Assembly: GCF_007475525.1 (NCBI RefSeq)
Contig: NZ_CP037899.1
Span: 1,302,001-1,366,000, forward strand
Origin: Methylacidiphilum kamchatkense Kam1
Lineage (GTDB): Bacteria > Verrucomicrobiota > Verrucomicrobiia > Methylacidiphilales > Methylacidiphilaceae
Length of the DNA stretch: 64,000 nucleotides
Direction of reading: 5' to 3'
Shown here in pieces: positions 29,915 to 44,525 of the stretch. Position numbers and translations under genes: made by a program. Numbering within the stretch: the stretch's first letter is position 1; each line of letters opens with the position of its first letter. The notes beneath the pieces were generated by a model. The model made no database searches. It worked only from the letters and a program-made list of their open reading frames with translations, and was not told where the DNA came from.

Positions 29915-30856
29915 TTAGAGAACATTTTCCCTATATCGACAAAACCAACCCAATACCATAAACTCTTGAGCCCGTTGCAATAGTTCTAACTCAGAGAAAT
30001 TTTCTTCTCCCTTCTCCTTGCTTGTTTCAAAGGCTTCACAAGCTTCATAAAGGGTATGCCCCTTGTCTAAGAGACTCAAAAAACAAAAGACTGGATACTC
30101 AACTGGTTTAATATAAGGAACGTTCCTAAACCGATGCACCACTACCCAATGCTTTTGTCTTTCAAGAGCAAAAGGCCGCTTGAGTTTTTTAACCGGATGC
30201 TTGCGCCTATCAACGATCCCCTTTTCTGAAGTGCCCATACCGGATTTGTCTAAACCAGAAAGGAGAAAATCTTCGATGGCGAATTGAAGCTCAAGCAGGC
30301 TCATATGCGGTTGAAGGCTTATTCTCAAAGCTTCAGGTTTTACTTCCATAATATCCCTAGAAGACAAAGGAGGATAGGCTGGGGCATCAATTGCTCTAAA
30401 CAGAGCCCGTTCCAATCGAACCATGTCTATAGCCGCTTCCTGAATAGTAGCACCTAAAAAATCTGGATTTTCTTTTAAAAAGGCTTCTAGTTCTGATCCA
30501 ATATCCCCGAGTCTAGCAGAGCGAGGCGGATACTTCTCTAAATAGGCTTCTAGCAGTTTTCTAAATCGCCTTTTTCCAATAAGATAGCTCAACCCGCTGA
30601 AATCCTGATAGAAAGCCTCAAGCATTTTAAACCAATATTGTTGGTTGTAAACTTCAAGGCGTTCTAAGCTGGTCATCGTCCGACTAGGTGCAAAGACCTC
30701 TTGTGCCAATGCTTCCATAGACTTTCCATCTTCGGCCCTTTTCCTGATCCGATCCTTGGAATTCAGCGGACGACGGATCCAGGTTAGAACCAATCGTTGA
30801 AGCTTTCTCAAGCTTTCAGGATTTTCCGCATCTAGGCTCTGTAGATTGATAGGCAT
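29915..30856 (-). CDS. DUF2063/HvfC-like MNIO partner protein
   Basis: 313 residues. The N-terminus has the DUF2063 pattern LERLEVYNQQYWFKMLEAFYQDFSGLSYLIGKRRFRKLLEAYLEKYPPRSARLGDIG, then EAAIDMVRLERALFRAIDAP. In characterised systems this protein is the recognition partner of the DUF692/MNIO oxidase that modifies cysteines of a small peptide. It overlaps the DUF692 gene by 41 bases and is cotranscribed with it and with the precursor gene. Confidence 0.88.
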   Translation of the reverse strand: MPINLQSLDAENPESLRKLQRLVLTWIRRPLNSKDRIRKRAEDGKSMEALAQEVFAPSRTMTSLERLEVYNQQYWFKMLEAFYQDFSGLSYLIGKRRFRKLLEAYLEKYPPRSARLGDIGSELEAFLKENPDFLGATIQEAAIDMVRLERALFRAIDAPAYPPLSSRDIMEVKPEALRISLQPHMSLLELQFAIEDFLLSGLDKSGMGTSEKGIVDRRKHPVKKLKRPFALERQKHWVVVHRFRNVPYIKPVEYPVFCFLSLLDKGHTLYEACEAFETSKEKGEENFSELELLQRAQEFMVLGWFCRYRENVL

Positions 30857-31679
30857 CGATAAACGCTTTGGCTTTTAAGGCTTCCTGATAGACCTCCTCA
30901 AAAGAAGGAATGGCATCGTCCCATTCGAGGAGGGTTGGCCGTGGACCACACCGTCGGATAACCTCGCCGTAGAGGTCCCACACCGCTGAGGATACAGGCT
31001 GATCATGGGTATCGAGGAGGTACTTTGGAAGTCGACTATGTCCAGCAATATGAAACTGTATGACTCTTTTTAAAGGAATATGGTCCAAATATGCTAGGGG
31101 ATTAAATCCGTGGTTTTGCGAATTGACATACAGGTTATTCACATCAAGGAGGATGCCACAGTCTGCCGTTTCAACCACTTCGGTTAAAAACTCCCACTCC
31201 GTCATTTTAGAAGAGCGATACTGGGCATAACTACTAATGTTTTCCACCCCAATCGGAACTTCCAAAAAATCCTGGGCTTCTTTTATTTTTTGAGCCGTCA
31301 GTTTTGCTGCCGCTAAGGTATAAGGCATCGGTAAAAGATCATGGACATAGGTTCCATCCACACTACCCCAAGCTAAATGGTCCGATACCCAGGGAGTTTT
31401 TGTTTTTTGAACAAGTTTTTTCAGTCGTTTTAAATGCTCGCGATCTAGCGGATCAACCGAACCAAAATACAGCCCTACCCCATGCGGCACTACTTTATAG
31501 CTTTCCAGTATCTTATCCAATAGGATCTCTGGCTTGCCTCCATTGCCCATAAAGTTTTCAGAAATAATCTCAAACCAGCTCACCCCTGGTTTCTTCTCCA
31601 ATATATGCTGGTAGTGAGGGATCCTTAAGCCAATCCCTATTCCGTAGGCTTCGAAAAACTTTGAAAACTTCAAAGACAT
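30816..31679 (-). CDS. DUF692 (MNIO) multinuclear iron peptide-modifying enzyme
   Basis: 287 residues with a TIM-barrel signature: GIGLRIPHY, VPHGVGLYFGS, WVSDHLAWGSVDGTYVHDLLPMPYT, IGVENISSYA, ILLDVNNLYVNSQNHGFNP, QFHIAGHSR, DTHDQPV and LLEWDDAIPSFEEV. These H, D and E residues are the iron ligands of the family that includes methanobactin MbnB, HvfB and BufB. The enzymes oxidatively convert cysteines in ribosomal peptides. The ATG at 31679 is preferred because GGAG lies 5-6 bases upstream; the longer ATG is 15 bases earlier. Confidence 0.93.
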   Translation of the reverse strand: MSLKFSKFFEAYGIGIGLRIPHYQHILEKKPGVSWFEIISENFMGNGGKPEILLDKILESYKVVPHGVGLYFGSVDPLDREHLKRLKKLVQKTKTPWVSDHLAWGSVDGTYVHDLLPMPYTLAAAKLTAQKIKEAQDFLEVPIGVENISSYAQYRSSKMTEWEFLTEVVETADCGILLDVNNLYVNSQNHGFNPLAYLDHIPLKRVIQFHIAGHSRLPKYLLDTHDQPVSSAVWDLYGEVIRRCGPRPTLLEWDDAIPSFEEVYQEALKAKAFIDAYQSTEPRCGKS

Positions 31680-31733
31680 GCTTTCTCCATGCAAAAAGAG
31701 GCACAGAGATAGACTCTAAACAAAGTCAAAAAC

Positions 31734-31967
31734 TTAACACCAACTAGAGGTTTTCGATTCTGAGCTTTGAGGTTCTTCGCCCTTCTTGCTTTTTTTCTTC
31801 CCTTTGCAGCTTTGCTTTCCTTTACAACTCATTTCAGCAAAGGCTCTAGGATCTGCTGATTTTCCAGCTAATTTATCAAGGTTTTTCACCTGCCCATTCA
31901 GAGCAGTGCCTGCAAGCATTCCAACCATCACCGTGCCCACAACGGCAGAACGAAGTTGTTTTTTCAT
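31734..31967 (-). CDS. Small Cys-containing precursor peptide, bufferin/HvfA-like
   Basis: 77 residues. An N-terminal positively charged, hydrophobic stretch (MKKQLRSAVVGTVMVGMLAG) looks like a Sec signal. The mature part is lysine-rich with a repeated SCKGKQSCKGKK motif (Cys48, Cys54) and ends in a C-terminal Cys77 (TSSWC). This fits the short, cysteine-poor peptides encoded next to DUF692/DUF2063 genes, which are exported after cysteine modification and bind copper in the characterised cases. It is first in the three-gene unit, 54 bases before the DUF692 start. Confidence 0.72.
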   Translation of the reverse strand: MKKQLRSAVVGTVMVGMLAGTALNGQVKNLDKLAGKSADPRAFAEMSCKGKQSCKGKKKSKKGEEPQSSESKTSSWC

Positions 31968-32275
31968 ATTCTTTATATTCCTTTTAGAAGATTCGCTCTT
32001 TTTCTTTTATCCTTCGCTACTAACTTCTACAAGAAAAAAACCAATTATTTATATTTTTAGAAAGATCTTGTATTTCTAACCTTTTTCGATCCCATTTTTC
32101 CATCTCCCTCCTCCCAACTCATTCCGCTAAATCACACCATAAATAAAACGCTAAGCCCTATGAGCTGTTTTGCTCAAATCTAGAATTTATGGAAAAGAAT
32201 CTTTTGTTTTTCTTTCTCACAACTCCTTTTCTCTTTATATACTTTCTCAAAATTAAACCAACTGAAGTTTAGTTT
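31968..32275. other. Divergent intergenic region, 308 bp
   Basis: AT-rich spacer holding the promoters of the precursor-peptide unit (leftward) and glgX (rightward). I see no sigma-54 element and no RNA gene. The glgX ATG has no clear Shine-Dalgarno. Confidence 0.4.
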
Positions 32276-43775: not shown

Positions 43776-44525
43776 TTAGATCTTCTTTACCCAACGGTTT
43801 CTGGTGCACTGATCTCCAATCCACCAAAATATTGCATATATAAAGATACCAACAACACCACTGAAGAATATGGCCGGGCCTAAGGCTCCCCCTTCAAAAG
43901 TACGAAGCGTACCACTTTCAATCATTCTTAAATACTCTGGTATAGCAGAGCGGACATAGGAAAATCCGATATAATCGGCTATACTCAAGGTTTGGCCTAA
44001 GGCTTCTATGGGTTGATGAAATGGAGCAATCATGACCCAGTTCGCTGGGTAAAAGGTTAAAGCAAAAGCATAGGCACCGAAAAGATAAGTCAAGAGGAGC
44101 TTTCTAGATAAAAGTAAAACACAATCCGCAGCAATAGCACATGGAATGACAGTCTCTGGAAACAATTCATTCATTGGATAACTGAACCATCCCCACCAAT
44201 TGACATATCTTTCAAACCACTGCCAGAGATTGATTCCTACCGCACATAAAGTCATTCCTACGGGTAGTCTAGCTTTAATCCAACAAGCTGCTTGTACGCT
44301 GACTAACATCAACATATAGGATATGACTCCTAAAATTGGAAAATAACGACGATCTTTCCAATCTATCCAGAAGCTCCAGTCTCCTTCTAATAATGACTGA
44401 GAAGCGAATGTCCCTACTGTCACAGTCATTCCTATGATGACCCATGCTACAAATTGAATTCTTTTCCCTACTTCTAAACCTTCTTTTTGAAGTTCTGGGG
44501 AAGTCTTTATCGTCTGTGTTTGCAT
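43776..44525 (-). CDS. pmoA: Particulate monooxygenase subunit A (PmoA)
   Basis: 249 residues, the usual PmoA length, with about seven membrane helices. WSFWIDWKDRRYFPILGVISYM, the GMTLCAVGINLWQWFERYVNWWGWFSYPMNELFPETVIP region and SYVRSAIPEYLRMIESGTLRTFEGG are the family hallmarks used for pmoA typing. The window alone cannot place it among the pmoA1/2/3 groups, but its neighbours match the pmoCAB3 type. SD AAAAGGAG precedes ATG. A long hairpin in the mRNA lies just upstream. Confidence 0.97.
   Translation of the reverse strand: MQTQTIKTSPELQKEGLEVGKRIQFVAWVIIGMTVTVGTFASQSLLEGDWSFWIDWKDRRYFPILGVISYMLMLVSVQAACWIKARLPVGMTLCAVGINLWQWFERYVNWWGWFSYPMNELFPETVIPCAIAADCVLLLSRKLLLTYLFGAYAFALTFYPANWVMIAPFHQPIEALGQTLSIADYIGFSYVRSAIPEYLRMIESGTLRTFEGGALGPAIFFSGVVGIFIYAIFWWIGDQCTRNRWVKKI

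Follow-up and report, generated by a model that had tools for sequence, protein, structure and literature searches.

Methylacidiphilum kamchatkense Kam1 carries a minimal bufABC operon which likely belongs to the Cys-Lys captophorins (Buf2/BufA2-like). Its precursor peptide is reduced, an unusually short form that occurs in volcanic methanotrophs, and the modified product would act as a periplasmic thiooxazole copper buffer. Gene content, gene order, conservation, the class of the enzyme and of its partner protein, and the relation of the precursor to verrucomicrobial Buf2-like peptides were established here. A preliminary description of the locus had proposed a complete cassette of precursor, DUF692 enzyme and DUF2063 partner. 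The three open reading frames were found at the proposed coordinates, with matches to PF05114 and PF09836, and a cysteine-modified copper-binding peptide, as proposed there, is the likely product predicted for them.

Gene order and genome context of the cassette

The genes follow the order precursor, MNIO and DUF2063 on the minus strand of the window, which is the whole analyzed stretch of 64,000 nucleotides. The features of the locus, and an insert found in related genomes, are the following:

31734..31967, minus strand: bufA-like precursor, 77 amino acids, with a signal-like N-terminus (residues 1 to ~25), a spacer, the core C48KGKQSC54KGKKK, a lysine-rich tail and W76-C77
30816..31679, minus strand: bufB, MNIO (DUF692/PF05114) maturase, 287 amino acids if translation starts at the likely ATG, with LLEWDD as specificity motif
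29915..30856, minus strand: bufC, DUF2063 / PME-type-1 partner (PF09836), 313 amino acids
31968..32275, minus strand: intergenic leader between the cassette and a divergent glgX-type gene, with the RBS-like AAAAGGAA before the precursor ATG
32028-32034 / 32066-32072: inverted repeat (dyad) TACAAGA...TCTTGTA upstream of the precursor, read from the sequence
L019:2607-3070 (genome G011, mirrored in L071) and L088:7304-7772 (genome G009): insert of ~460 bp between leader and precursor ATG

The last 41 nt of bufB are shared with bufC. Alignment favored ATG 31679 over TTG 31694 as the start of the MNIO gene. A promoter scan of the minus strand of the leader (31968..32275) revealed no convincing sigma-70-type promoter. 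The dyad, which is also present in the G011 leader, is a possible operator or a chance occurrence.

On the 3' side the cassette is accompanied by an ArsC/Spx-like gene (ArsC by profile match) and by what we take, from its sequence, to be an aminotransferase gene. On the same grounds the divergent upstream gene is presumably of the glgX type, and genes of the glycogen/amylase type presumably lie further out. No copper gene or DoxX gene adjoins the cassette, the DoxX-like genes of the genome being located away from it, and no gene for an uptake receptor (TonB) or exporter adjoins the precursor. The genome (2,202,032 bp, one contig) contains a single MNIO gene and a single DUF2063 gene; a second MNIO or an MbnB-type enzyme was not found in it. 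A divergent pmoA-family gene (PF02461, 226 bits) is located at window positions 43785-44486, at a distance of about 12 kb from the cassette, whereas in genome G008 the two are not closely linked.

An operon without an adjacent copper gene would fit a reduced peptide that, once modified, handles a different soft metal or redox stress (Zn, Au, sulfide, ROS) instead of copper, and a link to induction by gold and to further stresses is described for operons of the bufferin type (PMC12452194). We regard this as unlikely, since the characterized close relatives, Buf1 and, in preliminary work, Buf2, act in copper tolerance (PMC12452194).

The precursor peptide and its cysteines

The precursor has the sequence MKKQLRSAVVGTVMVGMLAGTALNGQVKNLDKLAGKSADPRAFAEMSCKGKQSCKGKKKSKKGEEPQSSESKTSSWC. 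Its KKQLR segment is followed by a hydrophobic stretch and then by C48-KGKQS-C54-KGKKK, and the last residues are W-C77. The signal was judged from the sequence, by its hydrophobic N-terminus. A search beside the orthologous DUF692 genes, as suggested in the preliminary description, revealed an orthologous signal-bearing cysteine peptide immediately before the MNIO gene in 11 of the 11 MNIO-bearing family genomes. In a comparison of the first 68 codons, the window precursor differed from that of the sister genome G009 at 10 synonymous and no non-synonymous sites, and from that of G008 by 30 synonymous and 17 non-synonymous changes (pN/pS 0.15). The block AGKSADPRAFAEMSCKGKQSCKGKKK is identical in all four genus orthologues, and the precursor of 'Methylacidiphilum sp. 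Yel' is near-identical to that of the window. Thus, conservation before the MNIO gene in every such genome and the exclusively synonymous differences to G009 demonstrate that the small gene is real and under purifying selection.

The ~460 bp insert is absent from the window. In Methylacidiphilum sp. Yel and in G009 and G011 it is located exactly between precursor leader and ATG. In G011 it contains a HEARO RNA (RF02033, 95.8 bits). Judged by its position, the insert would part the cassette from its own ribosome-binding site and promoter.

When the mature portion of the precursor was shuffled 200,000 times, the motif CKGKxxCKGK never arose. Its extended form CKGKxxCKGKK occurred 7 times in 84,980 species genomes, a set that may not include records close to the window genome. 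Four of these occurrences are signal-bearing peptides of Bdellovibrio/delta lineages with an MNIO gene downstream, one belongs to Methylacidiphilum and two are unrelated.

The preliminary description had stressed an unusual number of three cysteines. This holds for the window peptide, which ends in TSSWC, but not as a general trait. The precursors of G009 and G011 end in SCWC and that of G008 in TSCC, with four cysteines each, while the precursor of the sister genus has two only, in KGSC(G/N/S)(Q/H)CS(S/G)KKEKK. The count of three is therefore a local variant, specific to the strain or species, and not a trait of the genus. In the sister genus (L017-L025) the SCxxCS pair is combined with a lysine-rich tail, and the enzyme still has the Asp of the Cys-Lys type (EWDD).

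The C-terminal cysteine varies and is probably not the main target of modification. If the system were pearlin-like, the MNIO would modify the last residue (W-C77). This would agree with the final Cys of the peptides in the window and in other members of the genus, and with the action of TglH on a C-terminal Cys (PMC12452194). Such a system is highly improbable here: the enzyme is only a distant relative of TglH (83 bits), pearlin scaffolds have no signal peptides (PMC12452194), and the sister genus lacks the C-terminal Cys yet its enzyme keeps EWDD.

Enzyme class and relation to Buf2-like peptides

The MNIO matched PF05114 at 1.8e-105. Among the more specific models, it reached 342.5 bits on NF050167 MNIO_BufB and passed the cut-off of 310; the HvfB model (249 bits, cut-off 360) and the MbnB model TIGR04159 (47.6 bits, cut-off 325) were matched below their cut-offs, and the equivalog cut-offs of ApyH and ChrH were not reached. 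By sequence, the enzyme is of the BufB class and not of the MbnB class. In the MNIO tree each genus of the family is monophyletic with full support, and both fall among verrucomicrobial BufB enzymes; the sister status of the two genera is not resolved by this tree.

All segments common to the structure 3bww are kept in the enzyme (SDHL, VEN, LDVNN, HIAGH, DTH, LLExD), and these segments presumably hold the iron ligands. In 3bww the last of them reads LLERDF, as in Lys-Cys enzymes. The window enzyme has an Asp after the catalytic Asp (LLEWDDAIP), and in its substrate gate Ile stands in place of the second Arg (GLRI). In MNIOs of Cys-Lys precursors an Asp follows the catalytic Asp where Lys-Cys enzymes have Phe (FonB-Phe250 site), and the second gate Arg is no longer conserved (PMC13097082).

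In other loci, LLEWDG enzymes pair with Cys-Pro peptides (DDCPGK; 11/11 Cys in the three precursors of L052, L054 and L055), LLEWDD enzymes mostly with Cys-Lys peptides (62/82 Cys in 12 precursors, L026-L050) and EWDA enzymes with mixed precursor types. MNIO residue and precursor type appear to covary in these sequences.

The partner protein matched PF09836 at 1.3e-12. Its AlphaFold model (pLDDT 81.9) matched TglI 8hci/8hi7 (2.0e-5) and the PME-type-1 structure NGO1945 3dee (2.2e-4, TM 0.74 on target); the protein is thus predicted to fold like TglI and NGO1945. The locus combines a BufB-class MNIO, an adjoining DUF2063 and RRE-type partner and a signal-bearing Cys precursor directly before the MNIO, as in MNIO-PME1 (captophorin/bufferin-type) cassettes, with the CKGKQSCKGK motifs and the Asp at the FonB-Phe250 site (LLEWDD) of Cys-Lys captophorins.

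Matches to NF050167 were obtained in 32 of 388 sampled genomes of the phylum, 30 of them over the cut-off. The ORF before these MNIO genes typically encodes a signal-bearing Buf2-like Cys-Lys repeat peptide, in the same gene order. The full repeats are exemplified by CKGKNSCKGKGGC, and one such peptide, from a genome of the same order, is NSCKGQNSCKGKGGCKSGDNSCKGKNSCKGKGGCK. Against NF050166, the BufA2 model, three tested verrucomicrobial precursors scored 36-51 bits (cut-off 60). The window precursor gave no match to this model, even with E values up to 10, and no accepted match among all curated models and Pfam, including DUF2282 (PF10048). The proposal that it lies outside the methanobactin and bufferin patterns was thereby borne out. 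NF041110 'HPE1' as the precursor family (E 0.04, far under the cut-off) was set aside as probably driven by composition.

A profile of the verrucomicrobial Buf2-like peptides did not recover the window precursor either. For the sister genus, the same profile identified six precursors in the expected position, with values of 1.5e-5 to 1.2e-3; the G008 precursor was found at 0.018. The tie of the window precursor to the Buf2-like family consists of motif, gene order, and G008 and the sister genus as a bridge. Because of motif, place and these intermediates, we infer that the window peptide represents a Buf2-like precursor cut down to a single CKGKxSCKGK unit, with a lysine-rich tail where the next repeat would follow.

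With Buf2/BufA2 (NF050166, Cys-Lys captophorins such as BufA2B2C2) the locus shares the bufABC order, the signal-like N-terminus, the CKGKxxCKGK core, the BufB equivalog, the Asp at the Cys-Lys specificity site and the PME-type-1 partner. In contrast to Buf2, with its 6 or 12 cysteines, the window peptide has two core Cys and one C-terminal Cys, and a lysine-rich tail stands in place of the GGC...SGDNGC repeat. A count of 6 Cys is found in 90% of Buf2 peptides (PMC12452194). Buf1 (DUF2282) shares the three-gene cassette type and the enzyme class; the window precursor differs in its lack of a PF10048 match and of the four-Cys pattern. Direct membership in BufA2 was rejected with the unmatched model and three cysteines instead of six or twelve, and that in Buf1/DUF2282 with the unmatched model. 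Oxazolin/fontiphorin systems (HvfA, FonA; EGKCG repeats) likewise combine MNIO, PME1 and an exported Cys peptide, whereas the window locus has Cys-Lys instead of Lys-Cys, EWDD instead of ERDF, no EGKCG repeat and an HvfB score under the cut-off.

Judged by these comparisons, the cassette type is a known one, with a reduced precursor that the curated BufA2 model does not cover. Precursors with a signal and 1-18 Cys that belong to none of the named families have already been noted by the hundreds (PMC12452194). Within the papers searched, three points appear to be new, namely the placing in verrucomicrobial methanotrophs, the series of reduced precursors and the link to the Buf2/Cys-Lys group; the peptide itself may already be contained in supplementary tables of two landscape papers.

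Distribution, methane oxidation and proposed function

The cassette was found in 11 of 13 family genomes. The remaining two, G010 and G012, contain pmoA and neither MNIO nor DUF2063 genes, while ten Verrucomicrobiota with a BufB enzyme have no pmoA. Consequently, the cassette is separable from methane oxidation in both directions and is not tied to it. Within the species that carry it, a part in the copper supply of PMO is conceivable.

The preliminary description had suggested that the peptide could stand in for methanobactin. A peptide for copper acquisition by, or delivery to, PMO, replacing methanobactin in verrucomicrobial methanotrophs, would suit the occurrence of the cassette in most family genomes and the several pmoA copies of Methylacidiphilum-type genomes, which have no second MNIO. 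We nevertheless consider it unlikely and do not retain the suggestion. The enzyme is of the BufB and not the MbnB class, the precursor has a signal-like N-terminus, TonB receptor and exporter genes are not adjacent, and the distribution does not match that of PMO. In the PMO-bearing G010, of the same genus, the syntenic buf place holds tandem, partly degenerate TonB-dependent-receptor-like genes, as read from the sequence (L086:4159-11516).

The methanobactin system (MbnABC) resembles the locus in the action of an MNIO superfamily enzyme on cysteines and in copper as the likely ligand; it differs in that the window locus has a DUF2063 partner instead of MbnC and no adjacent uptake genes. Methanobactin membership was rejected on the MbnB score (47.6 versus 325) together with the mismatch of cassette and PMO distribution. 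A literature search yielded no paper joining Methylacidiphilum and MbnB, neither DUF692 nor methanobactin appears in the paper on copper in strain IT6, and copper-response data were not found. Quite improbable, finally, is a new role of the reduced bufferin in verrucomicrobial methanotrophs, in which no MbnB-type enzyme was found: as a store or chaperone for copper in the periplasm it would supply the particulate methane monooxygenases, and two MNIO branches would have been recruited independently for methanotrophy.

For the preferred reading, the periplasmic copper buffer, we propose a mechanism by analogy with Buf1 and FonA (PMC12452194, PMC13097082). As described for bufferins, the N-terminal signal probably doubles as the region that the DUF2063/RRE partner recognizes. 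The multi-iron MNIO of the BufB type would then carry out a four-electron oxidation of both Cys48 and Cys54 in C48KGKQSC54KGKK, with 5-thiooxazoles as the most likely products. The modified peptide would be exported by the Sec route and would chelate periplasmic copper, as a buffer in the acidic volcanic, metal-rich habitat. Against a bufferin stand the missing curated precursor match, the three cysteines, the SCxxCS in place of Cys-Lys in the sister genus, and the non-adjacent DoxX and copper genes.

The locus places bufferin-type copper peptides in verrucomicrobial methanotrophs. It also provides a natural precursor series, with 6 or more, 3-4 and 2 cysteines, under one conserved enzyme. With these small and simple substrates one can ask whether a single CxxC is enough for a BufB-type MNIO or whether it requires a CKGKxxCKGK unit. 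Should copper be bound by the product, the locus would bear on copper handling in PMO-dependent organisms without methanobactin.
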